Origin: a virus
DNA length: 40,431 bases
Virus record (IMG/VR): IMGVR_UViG_3300025697_000055
Span: 1-40,431 of that record
Reading direction: 5' to 3' (one strand)
Made by a program: the position numbers and the translations under genes. Position 1 is the stretch's first letter. Every line of letters starts with the position of its first letter. The notes below the pieces were generated by a model that made no database searches, was not told the origin of the DNA, and was given only the letters and a program-made list of their open reading frames with translations. Of this stretch, positions 2,152 to 30,221 are shown one piece after another.

Positions 2152-3478
2152 AATCAATAACCTCTCCGTAAAGCTTTGCCATTCTCTTTGTTAGTCTCCA
2201 ACGGACTCGATTATTCTTTGGGGTGTACTGTTCTACCGCGTTGATCTTCCGTAAGAACCGAAGCATAGTCCTCACTTTATTCTCTGCTCGATTCAGCTTC
2301 AATCCTAAGCTGGCAGAAGTTCTCCCCTCAGACTTTTCTTTGGCTAGTGTGTGTACAATATTCAAAGTTTGTCCCCGGCTTGTATCCAAAGCCACACGAC
2401 GTACCCTATCCATGACTGATGTGTCTATTGTGCGCTTATTCAAAACGAACGCGGTACACTTAGCCAATCGGATAAGCTGACTGACAAGCCTTGCCCCCAA
2501 CTCTCTCTCGGCTGTTTCCTCTTGGTGTTGAGAAGGTCTAGCGCGCATATGGCTCACGAACTTGCCGAGGCGCATACATTGGATCTTAGCTTCCCGATCC
2601 ATCTCAATTAGACCTAACTCTTGTGAAGCATTCTCGCGAAGGTAGTCCACGTAACCTCCTGTCAACGACATGGCCTTGGACAATTCCGGTTCATATTGTG
2701 TTTCCAGTTTGCCATCCGTTTCAATCCCCACGTTTTTCTCTGCTCGATTGGCTACCCTCCAAAGTATCTCGTCTTCCAGATCATCGTCAATACCTTCCAT
2801 GATGACACAATCCAAGAACCTCTCCCCTAATTCGCTTTGGTCTATTGACCTCAACGAACTAGTCCCACACAACAGCCAGGTCATCCGCACTCCCTCATAA
2901 TCCTTGCTCATAGTGTTTCGATAATGAGTACGGCTTGTGCTGTCATATAGGTCTCTTGCTTCGGAAAGAATCTGAGAGAGGTTGGGGCTTTGCAACAGCG
3001 TATCACCATCCTTTGTCACGAGCGTTTTGCCAAACAGCAAAGCCACGAGGCTGTTGTCTTCTTCCCCTGCTCCATCCGTCTTATACCCACTATGAAATCC
3101 TCTGATGGTGGACTTTGCCAAGACATAACGCTTGTTGGTACTAATAGCCTCACACAAAGTAGATTTTCCACAAGCGGCAGGCCCAATCACCTTGACCCAC
3201 AACTGGTCTCCAACGGCTTTCGTGCTTGCGATTGCGGCAAGCATGACAGTCAATGCATGGTCAAGACCGTCTGTCCATTTCATTGCTTTACGCCACGACA
3301 TAACCAATTTGCGGTAGTCTTGGCATTCTACGCACTCTATAGACTCTTGCCCTCCCGCCGTAGAGCCTTTTGTGCCCTCTGTAAGCCATTCCTTGGGGCA
3401 GGGGCATAGTTTGCCTAATAGCTCCCCGAGACGCTCTACACGGCCTGCTAGGCCCCCTCTCGCCTGCATTACACCCAC
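2144..3478 (-). CDS. P-loop ATPase of a phage replication module
   Basis: A 444-residue protein. The Walker A motif GPAACGKST lies near residues 98-106, and the later segment TWLLCGTSSL followed by an Arg/Asp-rich stretch resembles sensor-type regions of AAA+ ATPases. The N-terminus has a Cys pair (LCPCP) and a CVEC pair. The C-terminal 80 residues look like a winged-helix domain, with a run from NRAENKVRTML to WRLTKRM. I do not recognise a precise family. A DNA-dependent helicase or loader role is possible because it sits between two DNA methyltransferases and near the primase. It lies 3 bases downstream of the second methyltransferase and overlaps the next gene, so it belongs to the same operon. 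Confidence 0.8.
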   Translation of the reverse strand: MGVMQARGGLAGRVERLGELLGKLCPCPKEWLTEGTKGSTAGGQESIECVECQDYRKLVMSWRKAMKWTDGLDHALTVMLAAIASTKAVGDQLWVKVIGPAACGKSTLCEAISTNKRYVLAKSTIRGFHSGYKTDGAGEEDNSLVALLFGKTLVTKDGDTLLQSPNLSQILSEARDLYDSTSRTHYRNTMSKDYEGVRMTWLLCGTSSLRSIDQSELGERFLDCVIMEGIDDDLEDEILWRVANRAEKNVGIETDGKLETQYEPELSKAMSLTGGYVDYLRENASQELGLIEMDREAKIQCMRLGKFVSHMRARPSQHQEETAERELGARLVSQLIRLAKCTAFVLNKRTIDTSVMDRVRRVALDTSRGQTLNIVHTLAKEKSEGRTSASLGLKLNRAENKVRTMLRFLRKINAVEQYTPKNNRVRWRLTKRMAKLYGEVIDYV

Positions 3479-3481
3479 TTG

Positions 3482-5200
3482 TTATCTCCTATCTTGTGTT
3501 GCTAGCCTAATTCGATTCTCTGCCGTCCGAAAAGCCTCTTCATCATTATCGCAGCCGATGAATTTAATCCCTAGCCTCCGACAAACTACACCAGTACTTC
3601 CAGATCCCATGAAAGGATCAAAGACAACTCCACCCTCTGGCGGCGTTACCAAACGCACGAGGTATTCCATGAGAGCCAGCGGCTTCACTGTTGGATGCTT
3701 GTTCTCAACATCTCCCCCACAAGTCCTCTCACTTTTATTTGCCTTGGCACAATAGAACGCCCTACTTGGTTCTGAGACCTTCACCCCACGATCCATATTG
3801 TGATTTGTGAAACTCAACATGGCAACTACGGCAGAGCCATCTAAAATCATGGGGCTTGTCGTAGTCGTCGTGATGTTTATCTGCTTTGATTTCCCCACAG
3901 ACTTCGCAAGGTTGCCGTTTAACTTTGCCGTGCCTATGACCCAAGACCCTCGCAAGTACCCGCTTTCGGTACTCAGGATCAGTGCAATAACGTTTTCGCA
4001 AAGCTGCCTTAACAGCTTCGGCGTTACGTTCATAGAAAGTCCCTGCAAACCGCTTAACTGCCTGGCCCCTTGGCTGGCCTCTGTTACTACACGACTTAGA
4101 ACAGAAACGGCGACTTGATTTGGCAGGGACAAATTGTTGTCCACAGTATTCGCAAGTTTTATCTTCCACGGGAGTCTCCTTTTTGAATTGGATTGTACCG
4201 TGTCTATTATAGTCTTTGCACGCAAAAGAAACAAGGCTAAGTCTTCTTCTGTGTACGGACATTGTTTGAAAAACCGAGCGGCAGAGCCGGAGTCGCCGCC
4301 AAACGGCTTGGGGGGTTCCTTCCTTCCGCCATACGTGCCATAAACTGGGCTATTGCTTTTTCGCTCTGGAGCGTGGTGGGGCTCAAGACAACCGCTCTTC
4401 GTCTTAGGAAACAGCCCCACCACTTCATCGCTTCCGTCGTGGATTAGGTTGGCGGGGAAGCGGCCTTCTGGATTACCCGGTACATTCGGTCCTTGAATAT
4501 AATTCCCATCTGAACCATAAATAGTTACAGCATGGTGTCCGCCCCCATGTGGGGTGCCAGGGATTCGACACCCATCAACATTGATTCCGGCTACACCGTG
4601 CTTCACAGCATTATTTGCAAACGTGCCGTCGAGAGGTTTCATGGCAAGGATCACTGGCTCATAGCTCGGCTTCAGAGCAGTACCCCAACCGTCCCAGAGT
4701 TTGGCGGCGTCGGTTGCGGGGGCGGTGATAGCCGAACAGTCAATCGCACTGTTTTTGCCATGCCCTCCTGCAAACGAACCACCACGAATATCCTGGACTG
4801 GGGTTGCTGCCCGTCCTGTCTTTCGCCCCACCACTTCACGCTCTGCACCTGCTGCCTTGTCGAGGGATTTGCTGATGTTGTGTGACTTGGGGAAGCCCGA
4901 TCCGTACACCCACATGATACAATCGCGTATCTCCCAACCAGCATCCTCGATAGCACAAGCCAAACGGTGATAAGTTCTCGTGCCGCCGAAGGCTAGAAGC
5001 ATTGCTCCAGGTTTACAGACTCTGAGGAACGTCTGCCAGAATTGTACTCCTGGAACTCCATGGTCCCATTCCTTACCCATAAACTTTAGTCCATAGGGTG
5101 GATCGGTCACAATTGCGCTAACCGTGTTGCTGCGAAGTCTGCGGGCTGCCTTTCGGCAATCAAGAGGGTACAGGGTAGGGGAATATGTTGGCTTAGGCAT
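3482..5200 (-). CDS. Beta-class DNA methyltransferase with an HNH gene inserted in its reading frame
   Basis: A 572-residue reading frame with TDPPYG near residue 31 (motif IV), a long target-recognition segment, and KHPTVKPLALM plus DPFMGSGSTG near the C-terminus (motif I). This is a beta-class site-specific N4/N6 DNA methyltransferase. Family members run directly from the FF.. region into an FYCAKANKSER-type motif. Here about 157 codons (roughly 3758-4228) separate LALF from FYCAKA and resemble no methyltransferase. The inserted DNA carries an HNH gene in a different frame of the same strand, yet the methyltransferase frame stays open throughout. Its start overlaps the primase-like gene's end by 8 bases. 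Whether the long protein is active, or the insert is removed, is unknown. Confidence 0.9.
   Translation of the reverse strand: MPKPTYSPTLYPLDCRKAARRLRSNTVSAIVTDPPYGLKFMGKEWDHGVPGVQFWQTFLRVCKPGAMLLAFGGTRTYHRLACAIEDAGWEIRDCIMWVYGSGFPKSHNISKSLDKAAGAEREVVGRKTGRAATPVQDIRGGSFAGGHGKNSAIDCSAITAPATDAAKLWDGWGTALKPSYEPVILAMKPLDGTFANNAVKHGVAGINVDGCRIPGTPHGGGHHAVTIYGSDGNYIQGPNVPGNPEGRFPANLIHDGSDEVVGLFPKTKSGCLEPHHAPERKSNSPVYGTYGGRKEPPKPFGGDSGSAARFFKQCPYTEEDLALFLLRAKTIIDTVQSNSKRRLPWKIKLANTVDNNLSLPNQVAVSVLSRVVTEASQGARQLSGLQGLSMNVTPKLLRQLCENVIALILSTESGYLRGSWVIGTAKLNGNLAKSVGKSKQINITTTTTSPMILDGSAVVAMLSFTNHNMDRGVKVSEPSRAFYCAKANKSERTCGGDVENKHPTVKPLALMEYLVRLVTPPEGGVVFDPFMGSGSTGVVCRRLGIKFIGCDNDEEAFRTAENRIRLATQDRR
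3762..4169 (-). CDS. HNH homing endonuclease nested in the methyltransferase gene
   Basis: A 135-residue protein from GTG 4169. The start is chosen because AAGGAG (4176-4181) lies six bases upstream; the frame also extends to an ATG at 4262, but that part is methyltransferase sequence. The N-terminus has a zinc finger CEYCGQQF...FCSKSCSN. The C-terminus has CEVCG...KHHDDY...LCRSCHVEFHK, a typical HNH nuclease with paired Cys for structural zinc. Such endonucleases cut alleles lacking the insert and spread by gene conversion. It lies fully inside the methyltransferase gene in another frame. A good promoter lies just upstream, so it can be expressed alone. Confidence 0.85.
   Translation of the reverse strand: MEDKTCEYCGQQFVPAKSSRRFCSKSCSNRGQPRGQAVKRFAGTFYERNAEAVKAALRKRYCTDPEYRKRVLARVLGHRHGKVKRQPCEVCGEIKADKHHDDYDKPHDFRWLCRSCHVEFHKSQYGSWGEGLRTK
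4206..4234 (-). promoter_or_regulatory. Sigma70-type promoter for the nested HNH gene
   Basis: On the minus strand, TTGTTT (4229-4234), a 17-bp spacer and a perfect TATAAT (4206-4211) are found. The -35 hexamer is in the last host-gene codons and the -10 lies in the insert, 37 bases before the HNH GTG start. Confidence 0.6.
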
Positions 5201-6724: not shown

Positions 6725-7293
6725 CAGTATTTTCTCACCTCCCAAAAAACTGTGTTGTAGCCAGGCAGTGTTCCCCACTCTACGCTGTAGGTAGAAAACT
6801 CAACCACATGGCCTTCATAATTGTCCAACAAGTACATCAACCAATCATAGCTTCTTTCACACAAGAATTTTCTCAGGAGGGTGATTGCTATTATACCCCC
6901 TGCCACGTGCGTCTGGTCTTTAAGCGCTTCCCTCATAGGCTTAGCAACAGTCGTATAGGTTAGCTCATAGCTCCAGACTCCTCTTGAAACCTCTCCTTGA
7001 AAGATTGTCTTTTCGCTTGGAGCCATTGCACTGATATACAACGTGCTAGGATCAACCCCGTTTGCTGTAATCTTCCCCCAAGTAGTCACTACTTCCCGAG
7101 CCAGCAGATTGTACCAAGTAGGCCCGCCCGCCACTCTGTTTCGGATATGAAACAAAGCCCTTGGATTAGTTCCTGGAATGCGTTGGTCCAGTAGCCAACG
7201 ATCAAGAGCCTTCCAAGTGGGAGAGTGATTTCCAAATTCCCCCTTGGCATACCTCTTGACAAAGTTTCTCTTAGTAAGTACAGGCTTAACCAT
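6724..7293 (-). CDS. Hypothetical protein
   Basis: A 189-residue protein I do not recognise. It begins MVKPVLTKRN, is basic at the N-terminus and has an aromatic, beta-rich second half ending near NTVFWEVRKY, with no signal peptide or membrane segment. It overlaps the thymidylate synthase gene by 8 bases and the MazG gene by one base, so it is translated as part of this nucleotide-metabolism operon. Confidence 0.75.
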   Translation of the reverse strand: MVKPVLTKRNFVKRYAKGEFGNHSPTWKALDRWLLDQRIPGTNPRALFHIRNRVAGGPTWYNLLAREVVTTWGKITANGVDPSTLYISAMAPSEKTIFQGEVSRGVWSYELTYTTVAKPMREALKDQTHVAGGIIAITLLRKFLCERSYDWLMYLLDNYEGHVVEFSTYSVEWGTLPGYNTVFWEVRKY

Positions 7294-9205
7294 CAGATTG
7301 ATTTCCTGAAGGGGCTACTTTGCTTTTGTGTTCCCAAGCCTCTTTTCTTTTTTCTATCCAAGCTGTCCCTGCCTCCTTCCAATCGGGCGCATGTACCCGA
7401 CTCATTAAAGTCAAAGCGTTATTGTCTCCATAGTACCTCCGTTGCTTGTGCGCTCTGTATGCGCCGCACATAGGTTGGGCCACGTTACGGAGAAACGGCT
7501 CAGTAAACTCTTGATCTATCCCACGAGAAACAAAGCGAATAACTTCCATGTCAAATACGTCTGGGTTGTCTACCAGTGGTATCAGCTCCCATGGCTTTTG
7601 ATAATCCATCGAGAAATTGCTAGCCCACTTTTTAGGCTCCCACTTGTCTTTGTAGACGTGCAAGTTGTTTGTCAGGTGGTGATAGGTGCCAACCTCAACA
7701 CCAATACGCTTTGCCATGTACTCCAAGAGAAACGAATAGTGTACGACGTTTGCTCCCAACATTCCCCAAACCAAGTCGTTGCTACGATTGCAAACAGTCA
7801 TGTCTAGATAGCTTTTCCAAACTGCCACGTCTCTTTCTTGATGATGAACAGAGAAATAGACGTTGGTATTGCAATTATGCACAAGCACCCCATTGCTTAA
7901 TACTGCATTATGCCTTCCAGGAACCTCAAAATCATACACAGCCAACGTTCCGGCCCTCTCTACGCTCACTACACGATGATTCCCTTTTGATGCTTGATAC
8001 TCTTGGATCATCTCCCATTGTTCTTCAGTACGAAACGCCTTACGTTGCTGTAGTGCTTTTCTAAGTTCGGGTGTTAATCCGGCATAGTGTCTCTTCAAGC
8101 TAGCGGAGTGTTTTTTGCCTCTTGCATCTTTTTGGGATTCTGTCATTTTACAATGGGGATTATTCGCACCAAACTTACCTATAGCATTGTGTTGGCTTGC
8201 TTCCATTTGTTGTAAATTATCAAATTGGTTATTCAAGATATTACCATCTCTGTGGTGTATTGCAAATCCTCTGTGTATTGGCTCAACAAGACCAAAATAC
8301 TCTCTGTGCTCCCTTTTGAGATTAACTCCTGAAGTGTTTCTGTAAAGATTCCGTTTGAACTGTAAATATCCCTTTGGGCAATACCTACTTGCCGCAGTTT
8401 CTGGAAGAGCTGCAACTACATGATCGCCAACAACTAAATTACCCAAAGTGCATTCTTGCACCGATAATCCCACACAACGGCTTCCTTCAAACCTTCTTGT
8501 TTTGCGGTAGAACAAATGGTCATTTGTAGCTAAAACTGAAGAGTTATCATCAAACTTGATTCGGTAGACTTCTTTTTTACCAGACTTCCAAGCGTTAGTC
8601 ATCCAAGCCAATCGCTGATCTCCTGTGCCAGTATCCACAGTGTATACTGGATACTTAAATGTATTTTGAGTCTGGAATTTCTTAGCCAACCATTGGATAG
8701 TTTGGTCTCCCTCAGGAGACCTAAACTTTGTATTGCCTGCCAAACAAGGCAAATCTTTTGAATCTGTCTCCAAGTCTTTTGTTGGAGACCAGATAGACAA
8801 TACCTGACGACGGCAATCGGGGTCAGCTTCCAATGCGTCTGCAATCCTCAGTAGTTGATCCATCCCAAAGGCAACCCGCCAACGATGGCCATAAGCCCCA
8901 TGGAACTTCTCCCCATCGTCAGAGTAGTTGCCAATGTTGCTGTTGTAATACGCCAACGGCTGTACTTTGTTTGATCCTGAGAGCATCCACAGAGACTCAA
9001 ACAAATGAAAGAATGGGTTGGCGTCTCTTTCTGAATTGAACAGCACTCTCTGGAGAGGATGAGTGTAGGAGACCAATACTGGTTCAGTGACTTTGAGTAC
9101 GGGGCCATTACGGCTAGGCCGTTCAACGGTTGGAATAGACTTTAGAGCTATCCCGTTGACTAGTCGATCAAAAGCATCGTTGACATTACGAAAATGGAAG
9201 TGCAT
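7286..9205 (-). CDS. thyA: Thymidylate synthase / dUMP hydroxymethylase homologue with intein
   Basis: A 639-residue precursor with a 348-residue extein. Extein landmarks of the thymidylate synthase family are the Arg pair in DCRRQVLSIW, the catalytic-Cys motif DLP-CNTNVYF, NRSNDLVWGMLGAN and NNLHVY. The Asn in GAN aligns with the residue that selects dUMP in this family (dCMP hydroxymethylases have Asp there), so dUMP is the likely substrate. The product could be dTMP, or 5-hydroxymethyl-dUMP as in thymine-hypermodifying phages; sequence alone does not decide. The intein occupies residues 154-444, and the catalytic Cys is its +1 residue, so the unspliced protein should be inactive. Neighbours are a HAD nucleotidase and MazG. 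Confidence 0.92.
   Translation of the reverse strand: MHFHFRNVNDAFDRLVNGIALKSIPTVERPSRNGPVLKVTEPVLVSYTHPLQRVLFNSERDANPFFHLFESLWMLSGSNKVQPLAYYNSNIGNYSDDGEKFHGAYGHRWRVAFGMDQLLRIADALEADPDCRRQVLSIWSPTKDLETDSKDLPCLAGNTKFRSPEGDQTIQWLAKKFQTQNTFKYPVYTVDTGTGDQRLAWMTNAWKSGKKEVYRIKFDDNSSVLATNDHLFYRKTRRFEGSRCVGLSVQECTLGNLVVGDHVVAALPETAASRYCPKGYLQFKRNLYRNTSGVNLKREHREYFGLVEPIHRGFAIHHRDGNILNNQFDNLQQMEASQHNAIGKFGANNPHCKMTESQKDARGKKHSASLKRHYAGLTPELRKALQQRKAFRTEEQWEMIQEYQASKGNHRVVSVERAGTLAVYDFEVPGRHNAVLSNGVLVHNCNTNVYFSVHHQERDVAVWKSYLDMTVCNRSNDLVWGMLGANVVHYSFLLEYMAKRIGVEVGTYHHLTNNLHVYKDKWEPKKWASNFSMDYQKPWELIPLVDNPDVFDMEVIRFVSRGIDQEFTEPFLRNVAQPMCGAYRAHKQRRYYGDNNALTLMSRVHAPDWKEAGTAWIEKRKEAWEHKSKVAPSGNQSDG
7874..8746 (-). 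mobile_element. HNH intein at the active site of thymidylate synthase
   Basis: A 291-residue intein. It begins CLAGNTKF and ends GVLVHN, and the next residue, Cys, is the synthase nucleophile. ATNDHLF is the block-B-like segment with its His. An HNH-type endonuclease lies at host residues about 316-343 (AIHHRDGNILNNQFDNLQQ...QHNAIG). It needs Cys at +1, so it can only live where the host has Cys, and imprecise loss would destroy the enzyme. Confidence 0.93.
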
Positions 9206-10420: not shown

Positions 10421-10449
10421 AGCCCCGGATTACTTCTGGGGCTTTTTTA
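10421..10449 (+). terminator. Rho-independent terminator
   Basis: AGCCCC (10421-10426) pairs with GGGGCT (10438-10443), followed by seven T. It ends the lysine-rich gene and overlaps the last codons of the convergent Mom-like gene. Confidence 0.85.
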
Positions 10450-11197
10450 TTGGGACCACTCCTCTACCAATAAGCATCTTGGTCGGTTGTCCTTCTTCAA
10501 TGCTATTTTGTGATCCTCCACATGGCAATACCACCTTGCCCTTATGGTCTTGGTTCGATGATCTAATCGTGTTTCTCGTCTTACCACGCGCCAACATTGG
10601 CTTAGGGTAGGCGAGACTCTTCAGCCCCATCTCTACCGCCTTCTTCATGCCAGCCTTGTTGATTGGTTTCCAATACAAATGCTTGCCAAGATCAAAATGA
10701 GGTGTCACTTGTGAATTTGGCATAGATTTCTTTAGGTCACTTACTGAACTTGTACCGTGTCGTTGGTTGCAAGTTCTGGCTGGCACAAAAACACCGTCAA
10801 TATTAAACCCATCTAGTCTCTTCTTGGTTGTCCCGCTGTAAATCCATGACGCAGCTTGGTAAATTCCTCCGTGATGGTCCTCTTCAATGTCAGCAAACGA
10901 GAGCACCAAATTGGCTAATTTGTGCTTCCTTATATGCCCAATTGCATTACCAATCATCCTCGTTAGTGGCTTATCATACTCGGGCAACCGCACAAGGCGA
11001 GTAAGTTCCCACAGATTGTGAACTTCCCACCTTCCAGTAGCAATTGAAAATATACAACAAGCCACAACTGATAATGGTGGAGTAACCACGTCCCCATAAC
11101 ACAACTGGACGTTACTTGGCATTCTGCCGCTGTAGTGATATGGAATCACCAAACTACGGCAAGCCTTCATACTCACTTCTCTATACTTACTAGCCAA
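10430..11197 (-). CDS. mom: Mom-like DNA adenine modification protein (GNAT-type)
   Basis: The segments PYHYSGRMP, LWELTRLVRLPEYDKP, LSFADIEEDHHGGIYQAASWIYSGTT and the RHGTSSV motif match the phage Mu Mom family. These acetyltransferase-fold proteins put a carbamoylmethyl-type group on adenine N6 in DNA and protect phage DNA from restriction. The start is uncertain. TTG 11197 has GGGAGG eight bases upstream and sits just before the conserved REVSMKACRSL segment; ATG 11227 and GTG 11272 are alternatives. It overlaps the ParB-like gene by 8 bases. The C-terminal 40 residues are basic and may bind DNA. Together with two methyltransferases and the HMUDK-like protein it indicates extensive DNA modification. 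Confidence 0.85.
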   Translation of the reverse strand: MASKYREVSMKACRSLVIPYHYSGRMPSNVQLCYGDVVTPPLSVVACCIFSIATGRWEVHNLWELTRLVRLPEYDKPLTRMIGNAIGHIRKHKLANLVLSFADIEEDHHGGIYQAASWIYSGTTKKRLDGFNIDGVFVPARTCNQRHGTSSVSDLKKSMPNSQVTPHFDLGKHLYWKPINKAGMKKAVEMGLKSLAYPKPMLARGKTRNTIRSSNQDHKGKVVLPCGGSQNSIEEGQPTKMLIGRGVVPIKKPQK

Positions 11198-12365
11198 TGT
11201 CGATACCTCCCATTCTTGGGTGTTCATCAAGAACTCTGAACCCAGCTTCGTCTTGAGTATAAGCCAAAGCACAATCGCTCATAACCAAGCGTTTCTTTTT
11301 TCTGAACACTTGCCAAGCTTTGACAATCATGGCAAGCTTTTCTCCTATTTGTACATTGGTATCTTCTTCAAGGTTTTCCGCTAACTTATTCAAGGATCGT
11401 TGCAGAGGTTTCAATGAGTCGCCAACTGAAAACTCACTCCAAAACTCGGCAGCAATTTCCCATTGAGTCATAATCAGTCTGGATTCACCATGGGGCTCCT
11501 TATCTGAATATGCATCATAGTCACTATCAGAAGCAGCCATAAGGTACATTAGCCCAGCAGCATAACCCAAACTGATATATTTCTTTATTGACCCAGCACA
11601 ATCTTCGTCGTAGACATGCTTGACGCAAGGCACAATCTTGGGGTGATTAGAAATGAACTCCAGAGCTTCGCTGTGTGTTCTTCTCGGCAAGAATGCGTTA
11701 TTAGATGCGCCAGTACGCTTCCATAGTAAGCGGACAGCGTAGTCCAAAATGCGTGTGATTGGTTTGCGGTCTTTCGGGCGGTGTTGGGCAAACGTCTTAG
11801 ACATAAACAAAACGTCCGCCAACGTTCTGGGCTTTACGTTATCCAATGTCCTCGTTGCTTCTTCACTTTCATCAGCCCCAAATGCAACCAATGTTTCGAT
11901 ACTTGGTTCCGTGTTCCACACTTTGGACCAATAGGAATGTTTTTGCCATAGTTGACATGCAAGAATCAACCCAATAAGTCTGTGTTGCCCGCTTAAAACT
12001 TGCCCATCCCGGCCGATGATAATTGTTTCCAAGTTCAACTTCCATCGCTTGTTGAGTATGTCTTGGGCTATAGACCTTGCCCATGAATCATCAAATGGGC
12101 GGTTCTTGCGATTGCAACTACATTGCACCTTACAGTTTTCTTCATCCTTAAACAAGTACCTATCGTGGAACTTGACTGTTCTTGTTTCTGTCTTCCATCC
12201 GAGTAATTGCTTGGCGTGGGCACAAGTTAACGCCTCGTTGCCAACACAAACCCGGACTTCTACGTCAGGATAAACATACTTAGGGCGCAATTTAATCTTC
12301 AATTGCTTCTTGCTTCCCACTTTCTTATGCCTACGTTTCTTGCTTCCTGTTTTCTTATGTATCAT
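11190..12365 (-). CDS. ParB-like protein, paralogue of the gene at 25279
   Basis: A 391-residue protein. A basic tail with repeated KKxGSKK units opens it. Then come DILNKRWKLNLETIIIGRDGQVLSGQ-type residues ending in GQHRLIGLILA, the signature of ParB/Srx-fold proteins. The rest is helical (NVKPRTLADVLF, DYAVRLLWKRTGA, RRTHSEALEFI, YAAGLMYLMAASDSD) and ends GGIDIG. The plus-strand protein at 25279-27012 has the same order of motifs and is a clear paralogue. ParB-fold domains include nucleases, CTPases and DNA-binding proteins, and which applies here is unknown. It has a four-base ATGA overlap with the upstream gene and is next to the Mom-like gene, so a part in DNA modification or its control is possible. 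Confidence 0.8.
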   Translation of the reverse strand: MIHKKTGSKKRRHKKVGSKKQLKIKLRPKYVYPDVEVRVCVGNEALTCAHAKQLLGWKTETRTVKFHDRYLFKDEENCKVQCSCNRKNRPFDDSWARSIAQDILNKRWKLNLETIIIGRDGQVLSGQHRLIGLILACQLWQKHSYWSKVWNTEPSIETLVAFGADESEEATRTLDNVKPRTLADVLFMSKTFAQHRPKDRKPITRILDYAVRLLWKRTGASNNAFLPRRTHSEALEFISNHPKIVPCVKHVYDEDCAGSIKKYISLGYAAGLMYLMAASDSDYDAYSDKEPHGESRLIMTQWEIAAEFWSEFSVGDSLKPLQRSLNKLAENLEEDTNVQIGEKLAMIVKAWQVFRKKKRLVMSDCALAYTQDEAGFRVLDEHPRMGGIDIG

Positions 12366-13603
12366 TGAATTGCTTTCTTGCCGGTTTCGGTTATCGTGTA
12401 CAAAAGTAAGTCTCGACTTCCCATGTCATGTTTCTCAACATGCACATATCCAAGAGTATCCAACGCCGGAAACTGCCAGCGCTTGAGAGCCTTATCTGTT
12501 TGGTTTGGTGGTCGGGGGCCTGCATAATCACCCACTTTTGTTGGATCTACTTTTGATCTCTTTGCAATTTGATTCCGAGACAATGGAGACCCTGACAACG
12601 ACAGACAATGCAAAATAGCCACTTGAGGCTTTTTCATCTTTGTTTGCCCATTTTCAATCTGGGTATACCCATCGCTTCTTTTTGCTTGGGGTCTCAAATC
12701 ACATGGGGTTTTTGCCACTTGCCCATCATACCTCCTCTTTGACCTACCAGTGTTGAACAACATGCGATTGTACTTATCAACCTCACAACAAATATGCTCA
12801 ATCTCCCGCATCTCAAACCGAGGCATATCGGGCAAGCGTTCCCTGGTTATTTTGAGCAGGTCTCGCATTCGTTTTTGCCAATCCTTTGGCTTGGGGGGAC
12901 AACTGGAGTTGGAAGTTATTTTCTCCTCTTCTCCTGCGAGCCAATACAATCCACGAATACACCCAGGCCCAGGATTGCACCACGTGAGCTTGTCCCTTGC
13001 ATTCTGTAACAAGTAAGTGAACCGAAGATCGGTAACCAATTCATAAGCCATGAACCCTCCGAGATAAGGATATTGGACTAACCACTCGTGTGCGTTCTGT
13101 AGGCTCTTGCCGAGTAGCTCGTTGACTAATAGCCTACGATCCTTCCACACAATATCCAAGCACTCGCAAACGTGCTCAACCTTGTTGCTGCCAGGTGCTG
13201 CTGAGATCATGTAGGCCCCCGTGAATACTTTTGTACCACAAGCAGTTCGTCTCCTCAACATCTTAGCAGTTGTGTGTCCTCGCCAACTAGTAAGCGAATC
13301 AAGACCGCGCCATTCCAACAAGGCTCTTCCCGTCTCAATCTTGTTGAACCATCGGAAGGCTACCGTGGCAAACAAAACTTCAGGAGAGTCTTTTAGGCGG
13401 TCTCTGATGTTTTCCCGAAACCAGACAGTGGTCTTGTCGTTTTCTCGGTAGGGATTTGTGAAGAAGAATTGTTGCAAAACCTCATCATCTGTCCAAGGTT
13501 TTGGTTTCCCTTTCTTCCTCTTGAGATAAATATTATGGCGTTCCCGTATCCAATACAAAAAACGATCCAACGCCGACAGCTTTGATACTTCAGAGACTCT
13601 CAT
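12362..13603 (-). CDS. 5-hmdU DNA kinase helical-domain / thymine pyrophosphorylase-like protein
   Basis: A 413-residue protein. The first half (FLYWIRERHNIYLKRKKG, PKPWTDDEVLQQFFFTNPYREND, TVWFRENIRD, FATVAFRWFNKIETG) resembles the helical domain of 5-hydroxymethyl-dU DNA kinases and the related alpha-glutamyl/putrescinyl thymine pyrophosphorylases of hypermodified phages. No P-loop kinase domain is fused, so it fits the stand-alone pyrophosphorylase-type clade better. The C-terminal 90 residues read as a winged helix (VAILHCLSLSGSPLSRNQIAKRSKVD...YTITETGKKAI). In known systems such proteins act on 5-hydroxymethyluracil in DNA to build larger thymine adducts. The family match is from memory of motif layout and should be confirmed by profile search. 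Confidence 0.65.
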   Translation of the reverse strand: MRVSEVSKLSALDRFLYWIRERHNIYLKRKKGKPKPWTDDEVLQQFFFTNPYRENDKTTVWFRENIRDRLKDSPEVLFATVAFRWFNKIETGRALLEWRGLDSLTSWRGHTTAKMLRRRTACGTKVFTGAYMISAAPGSNKVEHVCECLDIVWKDRRLLVNELLGKSLQNAHEWLVQYPYLGGFMAYELVTDLRFTYLLQNARDKLTWCNPGPGCIRGLYWLAGEEEKITSNSSCPPKPKDWQKRMRDLLKITRERLPDMPRFEMREIEHICCEVDKYNRMLFNTGRSKRRYDGQVAKTPCDLRPQAKRSDGYTQIENGQTKMKKPQVAILHCLSLSGSPLSRNQIAKRSKVDPTKVGDYAGPRPPNQTDKALKRWQFPALDTLGYVHVEKHDMGSRDLLLYTITETGKKAIQ

Positions 13604-25116: not shown

Positions 25117-25278
25117 TTAGGGTGCAGGGGTCTATTTACATAATATACATAGTATAAGGTGTAGGAGTAGAGATTTTGCCCTTTACTTTTTTGCGCTCGC
25201 TTGTTACAAATAGGCAACCGGAAAAGCCCTCCCGGAAGAGGGCACGGATTTCACAACTCTTTCTCAAGGAGCGTCCTA

Positions 25279-27012
25279 ATGGCACGTCGTGTAAAGAAGT
25301 CTAAAGTAGTTGCCCCCAATCTCTCGGACCAAACAGACGAAAGGGAAATCGTACACCCAAAACCGATTGTGAAACTGTTGGTTGGAAAGACAGCACTCAC
25401 CGCGAAGAGGGCAAAGCAGTTGATGGGTTGGATAGAGGAAAAAGATAAGGTCAACTTTGGCAAAGATTTCCTTCTAGTAGACAGGCAAGGTAAGAAGGTA
25501 CGCTGCCTGAACAACGTCAACAATCGACCCATCTATAAGTCTGTCTACCTCACACTCATGCAGGAGATATTGAGGGGGCGGTGGCAACTCAATATGGAAA
25601 ACAGAATCATCGGGATTACCGGGTTGATTCTCAACGGTCAGCACACCTTCATAGCTCTGATCCTCGCAGTACAAGAATGGGAAGAGAACCCGGACAAGTA
25701 CCCATTCTGGAAAACAGAGCCTACCATCGATACCTCGATTGGTTATGGCATCTCTGAAGCAGACAACATTATCAACACCATGGATACGTGCAAGCCCCGT
25801 TCCCTTGCTGATGTCATCTACCGTTCAGCTTTCTTCTCTAATCTGAACAACCAACAACGGAAAGCAGCCGCAAGGGCTACTGACTATGCTGTCCGTCTTC
25901 TCTGGCACCGCACGGGCGCTGGTATCGATGCTTTTGGTTTGCGTCGCACCCATGCAGAATCTCTCGACTTCATTGAACGTCACCCGAAGATACTTGAATG
26001 TGTGAGCCACATCCTAGAAGAGGAAGGCAAGGAAAAGCAAATCAGCCGATACCTCTCTCCCGGATATGCCTCCGCTCTCCTGTACCTTATGGGCTGTAGC
26101 AATTCGGATCCAACAGAGTACACCGAAGCAGAGAACCCAAGCGAATCCCTCTTGGATTGGAAGCATTGGGAGAAGGCTTGTGATTTCTGGGTACTACTCG
26201 CGCAAAAGGCAGACGAAGTTTCAGCCGTCGCAACCGAACTGGCAAACATCATTGACGAGGATGGGGGCACGAATCTTGAACGGCAGGCACTTGTTGCCAA
26301 AGCTTGGAATCTCTACGTTGAGGGCAAGCCTGTTACGGTCAAACGGATTGCCATCAATTATGCGGTCGACGAAGACGGCCTCAAGGTTCTAGATGGACTA
26401 CCCAATGTAGGAGGAATTGACTTAGGCGAACCAGAAGAAACGGATGAAGAGGATATTGCACAACCAGACCCCAGCCCCAAGGAAATCACCAAGCGGTCTG
26501 CTACAGCTATCGTCAAAACCCAGGTCGGCAAACTAGGAAGACCTGAGCAAGCCAAGAAAGGATCGTGGACCAAGGGAGACGTAGCTTGGGTGTCAGAAGC
26601 AGGCGACACCTACCTTGGCAAGCTCGTTACAAATCCCGTGGAAGGCTCAGACAACGAAGTCCGCGTAGACTTGCAGGACGCCCAAGGAGACGAATGGGAA
26701 GTTTCCTGTTCTTGCCTCTCCCTCAAACAACCCAAACCGGAAACGGAAGAAGAAGAAAACGAAGAACCCCAGATGGCTGTCCCCCACAAGCAAGCCAAAT
26801 CCAAGAAAGGTAAGGGCAAGAAAAATTGGAAGGCCCTCCCTGGAAACGTCTGTTGGGTAGACAATGGCGAAGAAGAACCGTGGCAAGGCAAGTTGATTGA
26901 CCTTCTCGGCAAGAATGCCAAGCTCAAGGTTTTGCGGGGGCATGGAGGGGCTGGCAATACGAGGGCGGCCTTGGTCGAGCATCTTCGCGAGACTCAACCG
27001 ACGAAGGGCTAG
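25279..27012 (+). CDS. ParB-like protein with C-terminal extensions, paralogue of 11190-12365
   Basis: A 577-residue protein; ATG 25279 follows AAGGAGCGTCCTA. Residues 1-390 repeat the layout of the minus-strand paralogue: AKQLMGW, a GLILNGQHTFIALILA motif (GQHRL in the other copy), CKPRSLADVIY, DYAVRLLWHRTGA, RRTHAESLDFI, GYASALLYLMG and a final VGGIDLG. A linker and two similar small beta domains follow (GDVAWVSEAGDTYLGKLV, GNVCWVDNGEEEPWQGKLI), which look like SH3/Tudor- or KOW-like repeats. The change of the Arg in GQHRL to Thr may mean loss of a ParB-type active residue. It is the first gene of the plus-strand unit and has its own terminator, so it is probably made in large amounts. Confidence 0.85.
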   Translation: MARRVKKSKVVAPNLSDQTDEREIVHPKPIVKLLVGKTALTAKRAKQLMGWIEEKDKVNFGKDFLLVDRQGKKVRCLNNVNNRPIYKSVYLTLMQEILRGRWQLNMENRIIGITGLILNGQHTFIALILAVQEWEENPDKYPFWKTEPTIDTSIGYGISEADNIINTMDTCKPRSLADVIYRSAFFSNLNNQQRKAAARATDYAVRLLWHRTGAGIDAFGLRRTHAESLDFIERHPKILECVSHILEEEGKEKQISRYLSPGYASALLYLMGCSNSDPTEYTEAENPSESLLDWKHWEKACDFWVLLAQKADEVSAVATELANIIDEDGGTNLERQALVAKAWNLYVEGKPVTVKRIAINYAVDEDGLKVLDGLPNVGGIDLGEPEETDEEDIAQPDPSPKEITKRSATAIVKTQVGKLGRPEQAKKGSWTKGDVAWVSEAGDTYLGKLVTNPVEGSDNEVRVDLQDAQGDEWEVSCSCLSLKQPKPETEEEENEEPQMAVPHKQAKSKKGKGKKNWKALPGNVCWVDNGEEEPWQGKLIDLLGKNAKLKVLRGHGGAGNTRAALVEHLRETQPTKG

Positions 27013-27064
27013 GATTCGGCAAAATCTCCTAGCCTCTTCCCAACAACCCCCAGATTTCCCTCTT

Positions 27065-27090
27065 GGCCCCCTTAACCGGGGGCCTTTTTT
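27065..27090 (+). terminator. Rho-independent terminator
   Basis: GGCCCCC (27065-27071), loop TTAACC, GGGGGCC (27078-27084), then six T. It closes the ParB-like gene. Confidence 0.92.
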
Positions 27091-27197
27091 GTACCTAATC
27101 CAAAAATACTTTTTAGCCGTAACCCCCTTATGTGTAATAGGTTACAAGCATCGGGGAAACTATTTTGCCTAAATCCGGATATTTTCGCCCCCTGCTA

Positions 27198-27225
27198 TTG
27201 CATTCCACAACCGATACAGTATACT
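27198..27225 (+). promoter_or_regulatory. Promoter for the small-gene and helicase unit
   Basis: TTGCAT (27198-27203), 16 bp and TATACT (27220-27225). Transcripts would start near 27232 and carry a leader of about 200 bases with hairpins and the hammerhead ribozyme. A 25-codon frame from ATG 27232 lacks a Shine-Dalgarno and is not called. Confidence 0.55.
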
Positions 27226-27269
27226 AAGGGCATGAGAAACAAACAACACAACACGAAACACACGGGAGA

Positions 27270-27342
27270 GGGCAAAGCCCCGAAGGCCGGACAGCGGCCG
27301 ATAAGCTGAGCAAGGGAATACGGAATACGCAACTCAGTCGGC
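27270..27342 (+). promoter_or_regulatory. Leader RNA with competing hairpins
   Basis: GGGC/GCCC (27270-27280) and GGCCG/CGGCC (27285-27299) form small hairpins. The second strand of the latter can instead start a larger one, GCCGA-TAAG-CTGAG pairing with CTCAG-TCGGC (27297-27342), with TAAG as a bulge. The overlap makes the two structures exclusive, a layout seen in regulatory leaders. No known riboswitch class is recognised. Confidence 0.45.
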
Positions 27343-27360
27343 TTCAATGACCGATGGCTG

Positions 27361-27423
27361 GATTGCAAATGGTCGACGGAGATTGGTACTCCGTCCTGAT
27401 GAGAAACCTCGAAACCCTTTCCT
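27361..27423 (+). ncRNA. Hammerhead self-cleaving ribozyme
   Basis: All core elements occur in order. The cleavage triplet GTC is at 27372-27374. Stem I GACGGAG/CTCCGTC (27375-27381, 27389-27395) has loop ATTGGTA. CTGATGA is at 27396-27402. A short stem II G-A/T-C (27403-27404, 27409-27410) has loop AACC. GAAA is at 27411-27414. Stem III pairs 27365-27373 with 27414-27422, with mismatches at C417/T370 and C421/C366. Cleavage is expected after C27374, 61 bases upstream of the ATG at 27436. The two-bp stem II is short and activity is untested, but the chance of this arrangement being random is very small. Confidence 0.85.
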
Positions 27424-27435
27424 GGAGAACGAACG

Positions 27436-27627
27436 ATGACCAGCCAAAAACAAATGATTCAAGAGGAACTCCTGAAACTGCTACAAGGCGACTGTGGCGT
27501 CCGGTGGGGAACGGTTGTCTGGAAAATCACCAAGACCCACTACAAGCTGGGGGGAGCCAAGCGGGGTGGCGGAATGGAAAGTGCCTCACTAGCGGAAGCC
27601 ATCGACTACATACACGACCACATTTAA
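27436..27627 (+). CDS. Hypothetical small protein downstream of the ribozyme
   Basis: A 63-residue protein; ATG 27436 follows GGAGAACGAACG. It reads MTSQKQMIQEELLKLL..., then beta-type VRWGTVVWKITKTHYKLGG, then a helix SLAEAIDYIHDHI. Not recognised. It is the first coding region after the hammerhead ribozyme and is followed by a hairpin element also found after the next gene. Confidence 0.7.
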   Translation: MTSQKQMIQEELLKLLQGDCGVRWGTVVWKITKTHYKLGGAKRGGGMESASLAEAIDYIHDHI

Positions 27628-27675
27628 CCGACCTGGCCCCGATCGCCTCAATGCAAGACGGGAGGGATCGGGCCG
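27627..27675 (+). repeat. Inter-gene hairpin element, copy A
   Basis: About 48 bp, nearly identical to copy B at 27982-28030 (both begin CCGACCTGGCCCCGA and share GACGGGAGGGA and CGGGCCG). It folds as GGCC-CGATC-CCTC against GAGG-GATCG-GGCC with two single-base bulges. It sits directly after the stop of the first small gene. Being far from the downstream T-run, it is not an obvious terminator. Confidence 0.75.
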
Positions 27676-27708
27676 TTTACTTACAACTTTTTTCACGGAG
27701 AACGAACG

Positions 27709-27981
27709 ATGAAACCAGTAATAGGACACCTGCATTATGATGAGAAGCTTCGGACCTTTTTGATGATCCTCGCAGCAAACAAGCTTAGCGTAAAAGTGTA
27801 CAACGGAAAACATTGGCGGTTCCAAAAAAGATGTGTCATCGAGGGAAGCCCAAAACAATGGGCACTGAGGATTGGCAGCGGAAACAACGGATGGAGAATT
27901 GAGTTCAACGAGTCAGAAATAAACGACTACGACCCTGACATCACCAATATGGTAATCGACTTTGATCCTGAAGACGAGTAG
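27709..27981 (+). CDS. Hypothetical small acidic protein
   Basis: A 90-residue protein; ATG 27709 follows CGGAGAACGAACG, the same leader as the previous gene. Beta-rich (KVYNGKHWRFQKRCVIEG, WALRIGSGNNGWRIEFNESEI) with an acidic end (VIDFDPEDE). Function unknown. Confidence 0.7.
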   Translation: MKPVIGHLHYDEKLRTFLMILAANKLSVKVYNGKHWRFQKRCVIEGSPKQWALRIGSGNNGWRIEFNESEINDYDPDITNMVIDFDPEDE

Positions 27982-28030
27982 CCGACCTGGCCCCGACCGC
28001 CTCACAGTGAGACGGGAGGGAGCGGGCCGA
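27982..28030 (+). repeat. Inter-gene hairpin element, copy B
   Basis: Second copy of the element at 27627-27675, again immediately after a stop codon. The outer GGCC pairs and inner CCTC/GAGG pairs are kept, while two middle pairs are broken. The loop has gained CTCA/TGAG. Confidence 0.7.
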
Positions 28031-28063
28031 CACGGCCAACCTCCCCAAACGTTTGGAGATACT

Positions 28064-28276
28064 ATGACCCCAACACAAGCATCCAAGATCATCGGCTGTA
28101 GCCCCCAGCAAGTCCGATACCTTGCAAGGCACGGTAAAATCAAAGCCTCCAAGGAAATCTTGCCTTGGGGGTATCACTGGAATCTGGATCCAAAATCTGT
28201 CACAAGTTATGCACGCAAACCCCAGACCCAAGGCTTCCCGCGAGGGAAGAAACACAAGGAGCGTTCTAATGGCTAG
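28064..28276 (+). CDS. Small helix-turn-helix DNA-binding protein (excisionase/MerR-like)
   Basis: A 70-residue protein; ATG 28064 follows TTTGGAGATACT. Residues 2-30 (TPTQASKIIGCSPQQVRYLARHGKIKA) match the winged HTH of AlpA/excisionase and MerR-type small regulators, followed by a basic tail. It probably binds DNA as a regulator or recombination factor. Its end overlaps the next gene by 8 bases, and that gene's Shine-Dalgarno ACAAGGAGCG lies within it. Confidence 0.75.
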   Translation: MTPTQASKIIGCSPQQVRYLARHGKIKASKEILPWGYHWNLDPKSVTSYARKPQTQGFPRGKKHKERSNG

Positions 28277-28523
28277 TTGCCCAAAATGCAGACAAGAATG
28301 GTTATGGGATTGGTGTCGAGACCTCTTCACAAAGCCCGATGGCACCAGTTGCAGGGAGGAGGTACACAGAGAGAATGGAAAAAACGATGGGGAGGACTAC
28401 TATTGTGATTGTGGACAGCATCTAGGCACCTTGGGGAGAGAAGATGCTGTCCGCAATGAGCCCGAGGAGTGGGCTAGGATTGATTGGGAAAGCGAAAACC
28501 ACTCGTATGAACCGTACACTTAA
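28269..28523 (+). CDS. Small Cys-rich protein
   Basis: An 84-residue protein; ATG 28269 follows ACAAGGAGCGTTCTA. Cys pairs CPKCR and CDCG enclose a Trp-rich segment (EWLWDWCRDLF), which suggests a zinc ribbon; the tail is acidic. Function unknown. Confidence 0.68.
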   Translation: MASCPKCRQEWLWDWCRDLFTKPDGTSCREEVHRENGKNDGEDYYCDCGQHLGTLGREDAVRNEPEEWARIDWESENHSYEPYT

Positions 28524-28541
28524 TTTCCAAGGAGCGAACCA

Positions 28542-30221
28542 ATGAAGAATTGTGAGCAATGCGGTAGGGGCGTTGCCCGCCGTACTCGGGATACTGGGGG
28601 ATTGTTAGTCTGTCAGGATTGTCTAGAGGGAAAAACCAAACCAAAGGAAAAATCCAAAACCAAAAAAGAGACTAAGCTTGGGAAGTCCTTCAAGAGACGT
28701 AACGCCAAAACCCAGCACGTAATCGTGGAAGCCTATGCTGGAACAGGCAAGACCACTACGCTGGTCGAGGGATTGAAAGCCATGCGAGGTTTGCCCACTA
28801 AAATCAAACCCAGCACGCAACAACAAGCCGTTTGGGATGCTCTCAGGCAGAGTCCGAAAGATTCTCGGGCTTGCTTCGTCGCCTTCAACAAAGCGATTGC
28901 AACCGAGCTCCAAGAGAGGGTTCCTGAAGGTTGTGATGCCATGACGATCCATAGTATGGGGTATCGTGCTATCCGAGAGGCGTTTGGCAAAGTGCAAATC
29001 TCCTCATGGCGGGTATCAGATATAATCGCAGAGATTATGGAAATGGATATCCGAGAAATCCGACGAAAGAAGTTTGAGGTTCTCAAGGCAACCGAAAAGC
29101 TGGTTGGACTTTGCAAATTGAATCTAGCTCTTATGGACGAAGGAGAAAATACAGAAGAGGCCATTACAAATCTAGCAGCCTACTATGACATCGATCTCAA
29201 CGGGAATGCGAGCGAAGTCCTCACACTTGTCCCTCGCGTGCTAGAGCGTTGCAAGGAAGCAGCCCGAGATGGGAAGATCGATTTCAACGATATGGTTTGG
29301 CTCCCAGTTATCCTTAACCTTCCGCTTCAGCAGTACGATCTATTGCTGGTAGATGAAGCCCAAGACCTCAACCGCTGCCAACAAAGTCTTGTCAAGAGGG
29401 CAGGCCGCCGGCTTATCTTTTGTGGTGATCCTTGCCAAGCCATCTACGGATTTGCTGGGGCCGACTGTGACAGCATGGATAAGCTTCGCCATGAGCTAGA
29501 TGCCACCCCGCAAGGCTGCCTACACCTACGCCTGACAGTCACCCGCCGATGTGGCAAAGCCATCGTCAAGGAAGCTCAAAAGATCGTACCCGGATTTGAG
29601 GCACACGAAAGCAACAGCAAAGGCAACGTCAATCAAGCTTCCCTACCCAACGAGGAAACCGGCAAAGGTTACTCAACGCTGGTAGCTGACGGGGACATGA
29701 TCCTCTGTCGAGTCAACGCTCCGCTTGTTTCTGAGTGCTTCAATTTCATCAAGGAGGGAAAGAAGGCAAACATCCGAGGGAGAGACGTAGGGCAAGGCTT
29801 GATAAGCACAATCAAGAAGAGCAAGTCAACTACGGTTGTTCAACTTGTCTCTTGGCTAGGAGATTGGCTAGACCGAGAACAGAAGAAGGAGCAAGCCAAA
29901 CGCAACTCCTCTGAAGGACGTTCCATTGCCTTGCAAGATCGTCACGACTGCATTCTGGCATTCACGGAAGGGGCAACACAAACGGCAGAAGTCGTTGCCA
30001 AAATCGAGGCTGTCTTCACCGACGATAAGAATGGGGGAATCCTTCTCTCATCAGTACACAAAGCGAAAGGGCTAGAAGCCAAGCGGGTTTTCATCCTCAT
30101 GCCTCCCAATAGTGGAATGCCCCATCCGATGGCTAAATCTTCTTGGCAAATCAAGCAAGAATGGAATCTAAAATACGTCGCACTCACCCGGGCCATCGAG
30201 GAATTGGTTTGGGTGTCCTAA
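28542..30221 (+). CDS. UvrD/Rep-like SF1 DNA helicase with N-terminal zinc finger
   Basis: A 559-residue protein; ATG 28542 follows AAGGAGCGAACCA. CEQCG...CQDC (residues 4-27) is an added zinc finger. Helicase motifs are Q/I VEAYAGTGKTTTL (62-74), Ia CFVAFNKAIATEL, II LLLVDEAQD, III IFCGDPCQAIYGFAGAD, IV LTVTRRCGKAIV, V LLSSVHKAKGLEAKRVFIL and VI YVALTRAIEELVWVS. It would unwind DNA 3' to 5' in replication or repair. It is shorter than UvrD, with reduced 1B/2B domains. It is the only large gene of the ribozyme-led plus-strand unit. Confidence 0.93.
   Translation: MKNCEQCGRGVARRTRDTGGLLVCQDCLEGKTKPKEKSKTKKETKLGKSFKRRNAKTQHVIVEAYAGTGKTTTLVEGLKAMRGLPTKIKPSTQQQAVWDALRQSPKDSRACFVAFNKAIATELQERVPEGCDAMTIHSMGYRAIREAFGKVQISSWRVSDIIAEIMEMDIREIRRKKFEVLKATEKLVGLCKLNLALMDEGENTEEAITNLAAYYDIDLNGNASEVLTLVPRVLERCKEAARDGKIDFNDMVWLPVILNLPLQQYDLLLVDEAQDLNRCQQSLVKRAGRRLIFCGDPCQAIYGFAGADCDSMDKLRHELDATPQGCLHLRLTVTRRCGKAIVKEAQKIVPGFEAHESNSKGNVNQASLPNEETGKGYSTLVADGDMILCRVNAPLVSECFNFIKEGKKANIRGRDVGQGLISTIKKSKSTTVVQLVSWLGDWLDREQKKEQAKRNSSEGRSIALQDRHDCILAFTEGATQTAEVVAKIEAVFTDDKNGGILLSSVHKAKGLEAKRVFILMPPNSGMPHPMAKSSWQIKQEWNLKYVALTRAIEELVWVS

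Follow-up and report, generated by a model that had tools for sequence, protein, structure and literature searches.

The window analyzed here, i.e., the whole stretch of 40,431 bases, is a virus contig that carries genes for a DNA polymerase A, a UvrD-like helicase and other phage replication functions. Between a terminator and the start codon of a small gene, its plus strand harbors a short element with the layout of a hammerhead ribozyme, and the features of this region are the following:

27065-27090, plus strand: intrinsic terminator of the upstream gene 25201-27012, with an all-GC stem of 7 bp and a T run after it
27198-27225, plus strand: candidate promoter, TTGCAT (27198-27203), 16 nt and TATACT (27220-27225), with a weak -35, read by eye
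27263-27272 with 27415-27424, plus strand: candidate long-range extension of stem III, CGGGAGAGGG with CCCUUUCCUG, enclosing the leader hairpins
27365-27422, plus strand: predicted type III hammerhead including a local stem III, 65.2 bits with a covariance model trained without the window
27424-27427, plus strand: Shine-Dalgarno GGAG, 8 nt before the ATG
27436-27627, plus strand: 63-aa ORF with Shine-Dalgarno and ATG, the first gene past the element
28542-30221, plus strand: UvrD/Rep-type helicase gene (Pfam UvrD-helicase, 1.3e-22; phrog_1967, 1.4e-81)

The earlier note on this DNA had described the element as part of the leader of a small-gene/helicase transcript running from a promoter at 27198. 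The promoter stands as a weak sigma-70-like consensus match but was not reported by the promoter scan, while the helicase gene does run in the same direction but its link to the element is loose, as it starts 1.1 kb downstream (28542), past several small ORFs. Position 27436 is the ATG start codon and not the Shine-Dalgarno. The 63-aa ORF matched no Pfam or PHROG family and its protein had no relative in the viral contigs; besides, positions 26900-28600 showed no DNA similarity to sequenced phages. The helicase was found in the viral contigs as one identical copy (L114), in which the ribozyme region could not be compared because that contig ends 345 nt upstream of the helicase gene.

Some additional characteristics of the window were recorded along the way. 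A 51-nt hairpin-forming repeat, 86% identical between its copies (27625-27675 and 27979-28029, plus strand), lies 3' of the stop codons of the genes starting at 27436 and 27709, and the Shine-Dalgarno leaders of these two genes are nearly identical (27418-27439 and 27691-27712). The unknown-function family phrog_5931 is matched by two proteins, encoded at 25201-27012 (plus strand) and 11193-12365 (minus strand). Also on the minus strand, an intein that includes an HNH endonuclease domain interrupts the thymidylate synthase (7289-9205), and a DNA methyltransferase (3485-5200) has its matched parts at the ends (residues about 2-178 and 498-569), leaving a large middle stretch that is possibly another insertion such as an intein. 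A Mom-like DNA modification protein and a 5-hmdU DNA kinase helical-domain protein (10433-11272 and 12365-13603, minus strand) suggest hypermodified phage DNA.

Every element named in the earlier note was found in order on the plus strand within 27365-27422, and its parts can be assigned as follows:

27371-27373 with 27414-27416, plus strand: local stem III, continued after a mismatch by 27367-27369 with 27418-27420
27372-27374, plus strand: GUC cleavage triplet, with the cut predicted from the sequence after C27374
27375-27381 with 27389-27395, plus strand: stem I hairpin, perfect 7 bp (7/7 Watson-Crick)
27382-27388, plus strand: stem I loop AUUGGUA, 7 nt
27396-27402, plus strand: catalytic core CUGAUGA (C3-A9), invariant in the 25-member alignment described below
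27403-27410, plus strand: stem II of 2 bp (G27403-C27410 and A27404-U27409) with loop AACC
27411-27414, plus strand: GAAA (G12, A13, A14 and A15.1), invariant in the same alignment
27385-27387 with 27406-27408, plus strand: candidate loop I-loop II pseudoknot (G27385-C27408, G27386-C27407 and U27387-A27406)

This is the type III order, namely the 5' strand of stem III, UH, stem I, CUGANGA, stem II, GAAA and the 3' strand of stem III. The core nucleotides C3, U4, G5, A6, N7, G8, A9, G12, A13 and A14, the pair A15.1-U16.1 and C17 are all present, and stem II, with G10.1-C11.1 and a closing loop, has 2 bp in this copy. G27401 corresponds to G8 and A27412 to A13, matching the roles implied by the mutations that had been suggested at these positions. 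The local stem III comprises three contiguous pairs (U27373-A27414, G27372-C27415 and G27371-C27416), a U.C mismatch and then AAA/UUU, which places it among the weakest of its family.

A covariance model derived from 24 relatives, with the window left out, scored the element at 65.2 bits with an E-value of 5.3e-20 (such E-values being rough, according to the warning of the tool itself), and the next best place in the 40 kb reached 7.9 bits, so that no further hammerhead was detected across the window with the family model. Only one other CTGANGA in the window is preceded by even a 4-bp hairpin, and no equally complete motif appeared on either strand of 250 simulated 40-kb windows. A direct repeat (D5, 27397-27420 and 27738-27761, 75% identical) was considered as a second copy and rejected, as it lies within a 90-aa ORF and has no stem I. 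A sequence that resembles a hammerhead merely by chance would be compatible with the lack of an Rfam match at the gathering score and with single-sequence folding, in which the element had no excess stability over shuffles; nonetheless, given the empty simulated windows and the score from a model that never saw this sequence, we assign that explanation next to no probability.

Searching the whole window against Rfam matched no family at the gathering score, and with an E-value limit only sroD was returned (28.7 bits against a gathering score of 50). When 521 bases were searched, the sole match was a sub-threshold one to RF02276, Hammerhead_II (27347-27412, 22.4 bits against a gathering score of 37). 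The element indeed resembles this family in its stem I hairpin with a UGG loop, CUGAUGAG, the short stem II and the pairing between loop I and the flank of stem II, and thus it might be read as a type II hammerhead. However, type II hammerheads are permuted, with GAAA and stem III placed before the cleavage site, and the RF02276 alignment lacks the GAAA strand altogether and pairs only poorly where a stem III hairpin should be. The one GAAA that comes with stem III pairing lies 3' of stem II, as in the type III order, which makes a type II identity extremely improbable. The type III family of Rfam, RF00008 (Hammerhead_3), has the same permutation as the window element, but the element did not reach its gathering score of 48.5 and is absent from its matches. 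The earlier note had named the lack of a covariance-model hit above threshold among the results that would refute a hammerhead, and judged by Rfam this is the result obtained, although the model derived from relatives recognized the element clearly. This miss can be attributed to model coverage, since all other family members scanned are missed by Rfam too: the gathering score was reached by none of the type III members scanned, and L107 matched RF00008 at 30.7 bits.

The relatives were found by scanning viral contigs with CTGATGAGNNACCNCGAAAC, which returned 21 loci, 11 of them with GTC or GTT and a hairpin of about 7 bp and varied sequence directly before the match. Further scans extended the set to 25 aligned members including the window, plus L004, L098 and L109, a family size that is a lower bound set by the exact-match scan patterns. 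In the GTDB genomes, the strict family pattern had no match, and the three matches to a looser pattern lacked a proper stem I and were taken as chance. We conclude that the element is a member of a family with at least two dozen members in other phages that has been missed by Rfam.

Comparative analysis of the 25 aligned members strengthens the assignment, and the pairing of stems I and III is independent evidence because the scans fixed letters of the core and loops and not those of these two stems. Standard pairs occupy 90.3% of the alignment cells, compared to 34-45% when the partners are slid by 1-3 columns. Moreover, 14 of the 19 pairs show changes on both sides. Such two-sided changes occur in 116 cells, whereas shuffled alignments have 36 +/- 4.5, and the covariation score of 0.612 compares with a shuffled value of 0.159. 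In stem I, 99.4% of the cells are paired and six of the seven pairs change on both sides, and stem III covaries across the family; T16.1 is invariant and C17 is conserved in at least 90% of the members. The first pair of stem II is invariant and the second is formed in 10 of the 25 sequences. The minimal stem II pointed out in the earlier note is a family-wide trait and not an oddity of this copy. With its 65.2 bits, the window element scores well inside the family range.

The pseudoknot between GGU of loop I and ACC of loop II, which is absent from the earlier note, provides at the sequence level the contact expected between the two loops, being complementary in every aligned member (100% of cells paired). 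Where the scans left loop I unconstrained, GGUA occurred in 11/11 loci with hammerhead context, and where loop II was unconstrained, ACC occurred in 16/16 family loci detected, although these counts are small and include near-duplicates. Additionally, L099 carries the exchanged combination GGC/GCC and was the sole match in the collection to this matched pattern, which demanded both sides, whereas the mismatched GGC/ACC pattern had no match there. L099 also has GUC, stem I, stem III and a Shine-Dalgarno, none of them selected for by the pattern. Apparently, the short stem II is compensated across the family by this predicted loop-loop pseudoknot.

The position relative to the downstream gene is conserved as well. 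The distance from the cut to the start codon is 42-76 nt across the members, mostly 51-63 (61 nt in the window copy), and nearly all of them have a Shine-Dalgarno in between. Among the loci fetched from the same scans, a Shine-Dalgarno and an ATG 45-80 nt past the cut accompanied 21 of the 26 hammerheads, compared to 3 of the 59 decoys. The downstream proteins are mostly small, mutually unrelated and of unknown function. Taken together, the independent family model, the covariation and the conserved position relative to the gene strongly support the original hammerhead call, and 27365-27422 very probably encodes a real self-cutting RNA, a hammerhead ribozyme.

It has been demonstrated that bacteria and phages carry hammerheads of all three permutations, with a stem II one or two base pairs long, and that clustered copies flank phage genes (Perreault et al., 2011; PMC3088659). 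In the same study, a pseudoknot was critical for fast cleavage, and about 40% of the representatives had one in the loop I-stem II region (PMC3088659). Bacterial hammerheads are also enriched in the vicinity of Mu-like phage genes and of further self-cleaving ribozymes (PMC10085705, 2023). The family described here shares with the hammerheads of PMC3088659 the catalytic core, the short stem II, the pseudoknot, the phage or prophage context and the presence of several hammerheads flanking genes, but it is uniformly type III, mostly with a 7-bp stem I and an NNNGGUA loop, has a 2-bp stem II, mostly with an NACC loop, and keeps an almost constant spacing to the start codon. The arrangement highlighted in the earlier note, with a hammerhead in front of a replication-type unit, has a precedent in HHphage of the haloviruses HF1/HF2, which lies 13 nt upstream of a helicase gene and for which an in vivo 5' end was mapped within 3 nt of the cut (PMC3088659). 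In both cases a tailed dsDNA virus has the hammerhead shortly before an early transcript of the replication type; nevertheless, HHphage stands 13 nt before the helicase start codon itself and has core insertions near C3, whereas in the window copy the core is canonical and the next gene is the 63-aa ORF, the helicase following 1.1 kb downstream. A search of the open literature for a later description of this type III subfamily returned nothing beyond PMC3088659 and PMC10085705. As far as sequence tells, the window element is thus one of the known phage and bacterial hammerheads, and what may be new, in a comparison with the text of the 2011 study, is a uniform type III subfamily that Rfam reached in none of the loci scanned, together with the near-fixed distance to the start codon.

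Consistent with the ribozyme assignment, other self-cleaving ribozymes were found close to several family members. An Rfam type II hammerhead lies near the member in L051, while in L109 a family hammerhead has, about 230 nt further downstream, a Twister-P5 ribozyme that reaches the gathering score (12149-12219, minus strand). L011 and L005 each have a type III copy and, past it, type II copies before each of the next genes, and in L036 (1000-3800, minus strand) we interpret 2.7 kb as containing a single type III hammerhead and about five of type II before successive small genes. The type II copies of L036 have their Shine-Dalgarno (GAGGA/GAGGAG) within or adjoining CUGAUGAGG, and near position 3092 of this locus ACCGAAACGAGGA before an ATG looks like a copy with its middle deleted. 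Homologous small genes (MS.L/Y..EQR....SARAKNRK) occur in L005 (1000-1700), L011 (3180-3880) and L036 (2790-2870), all on the minus strand, and the hammerhead upstream of them is type III in L005 and L011 and apparently type II in L036, i.e., a permutation change at the same gene.

From the sequence, the family membership, the covariation and the position of the element, we infer how the RNA would fold and cleave and what this would do to the mRNA. Most likely, the 5' leader of this phage operon contains a pseudoknot-stabilized type III hammerhead that self-cleaves co-transcriptionally and leaves the mRNA with a defined 5'-hydroxyl end, as the geometry implies and as the earlier note had proposed. 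Once the leader was transcribed, stems I and II would fold side by side, held by the GGU/ACC pairing, and the hammerhead would cut itself after C27374. The 5' product would end in a 2',3'-cyclic phosphate and, assuming that transcription starts from the candidate promoter, measure about 143 nt. The remaining mRNA would begin with a 5'-hydroxyl on the 7-bp stem I hairpin, with no unpaired 5' nucleotides; the 63-aa gene would have its AUG 61 nt from this end and its Shine-Dalgarno free. The likely benefit would be a short, defined, hairpin-capped 5' end that carries no triphosphate, whatever the transcription start. In bacterial mRNA decay, base-paired 5' ends lacking a phosphate are poor starting points for 5'-end-dependent decay, so that a stable defined 5' end is the most economical function to propose.

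Not every sequence that conforms to the hammerhead consensus is active, however, as 4 of 18 such hammerheads were inactive in vitro (PMC3088659), and this weighs against self-cleavage in the present case. Furthermore, when the leader is folded freely to minimum energy, GGUC pairs with a GACC upstream of it in place of stem III, and the hammerhead-constrained leader fold is 11.5 kcal/mol less stable than the free fold under an energy model that ignores the pseudoknot and the tertiary contacts of the core. This competing predicted fold is the main computational reservation about cleavage activity. Along with the weak local stem III and with the fact that no relative has the same leader, by which ongoing selection could be seen, it would suit a former ribozyme that is inactive here and persists as a hairpin of the leader. 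Decay should have cost such a copy some of its parts, but all core positions, the pseudoknot and both pairs of stem II are intact and the score is well within the family range, and for these reasons we regard such a relic as very unlikely.

The proximity of stem III to the ribosome binding site raises another alternative, in which cleavage is coupled to translation: the uncut stem III, perhaps as a long-range helix in the window, would hide part of the Shine-Dalgarno, and the cut would free ribosome binding. Consistent with this proposal, the 3' strand of stem III reaches up to or into the Shine-Dalgarno in L006, L009, L017, L018, L020, L051, L098, L100, L102, L106 and L108, and the 7-bp stem III of L035 covers an entire TAGGAG. 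In the window, the helix between 27263-27272 and 27415-27424, which was noticed after the fact, is a 10-bp duplex of -17.7 kcal/mol (p 0.025 against shuffles) that ends on the first G of GGAG, and with only the hammerhead pairs constrained, the energy model by itself places 8 bp of this duplex in a stack on the local stem III. On the other hand, the local stem III of the window copy ends 7 nt before the Shine-Dalgarno, and a gap is also present in L005, L039, L101 and L107; the short spacing to the Shine-Dalgarno would alone yield overlap; and the long-range helix, besides its p of 0.025, lacks comparative support, as it was sought in relatives and not found, none of them sharing the window leader. 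We consider a translation switch of this kind possible but doubtful. Its extension to the whole family, with the Shine-Dalgarno held in or beside stem III until the cut, cleavage timing or gating early-gene translation, the device standing before nearly every operon gene in L036, L011 and L005, and the window copy acting through the long-range helix, which would extend stem III around the entire leader, appears rather unlikely.

The study that described phage hammerheads did not settle what they do for the phage (PMC3088659). With self-cleavage that defines the mRNA 5' end as the preferred reading, the role becomes testable through the near-invariant geometry, which brings cut, stem I hairpin, Shine-Dalgarno and start codon together in about 60 nt, and the functions to be separated are the definition of the 5' end with protection of the mRNA and the release of the Shine-Dalgarno. 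Moreover, the Rfam hammerhead models overlook a recognizable phage subfamily, which implies that counts of hammerheads in viral genomes are too low. A possible bench system is the cultured Vibrio phage Phriendly (L098, MN062185.1), which carries the best-known neighbor of the family, a variant outside the 25-member alignment. This unannotated hammerhead variant, at 1492-1552 near the left end of the genome, has the core CUGAAUGA with one extra A and lies directly before the annotated ribosome binding site of gene 002, which falls within stem III.
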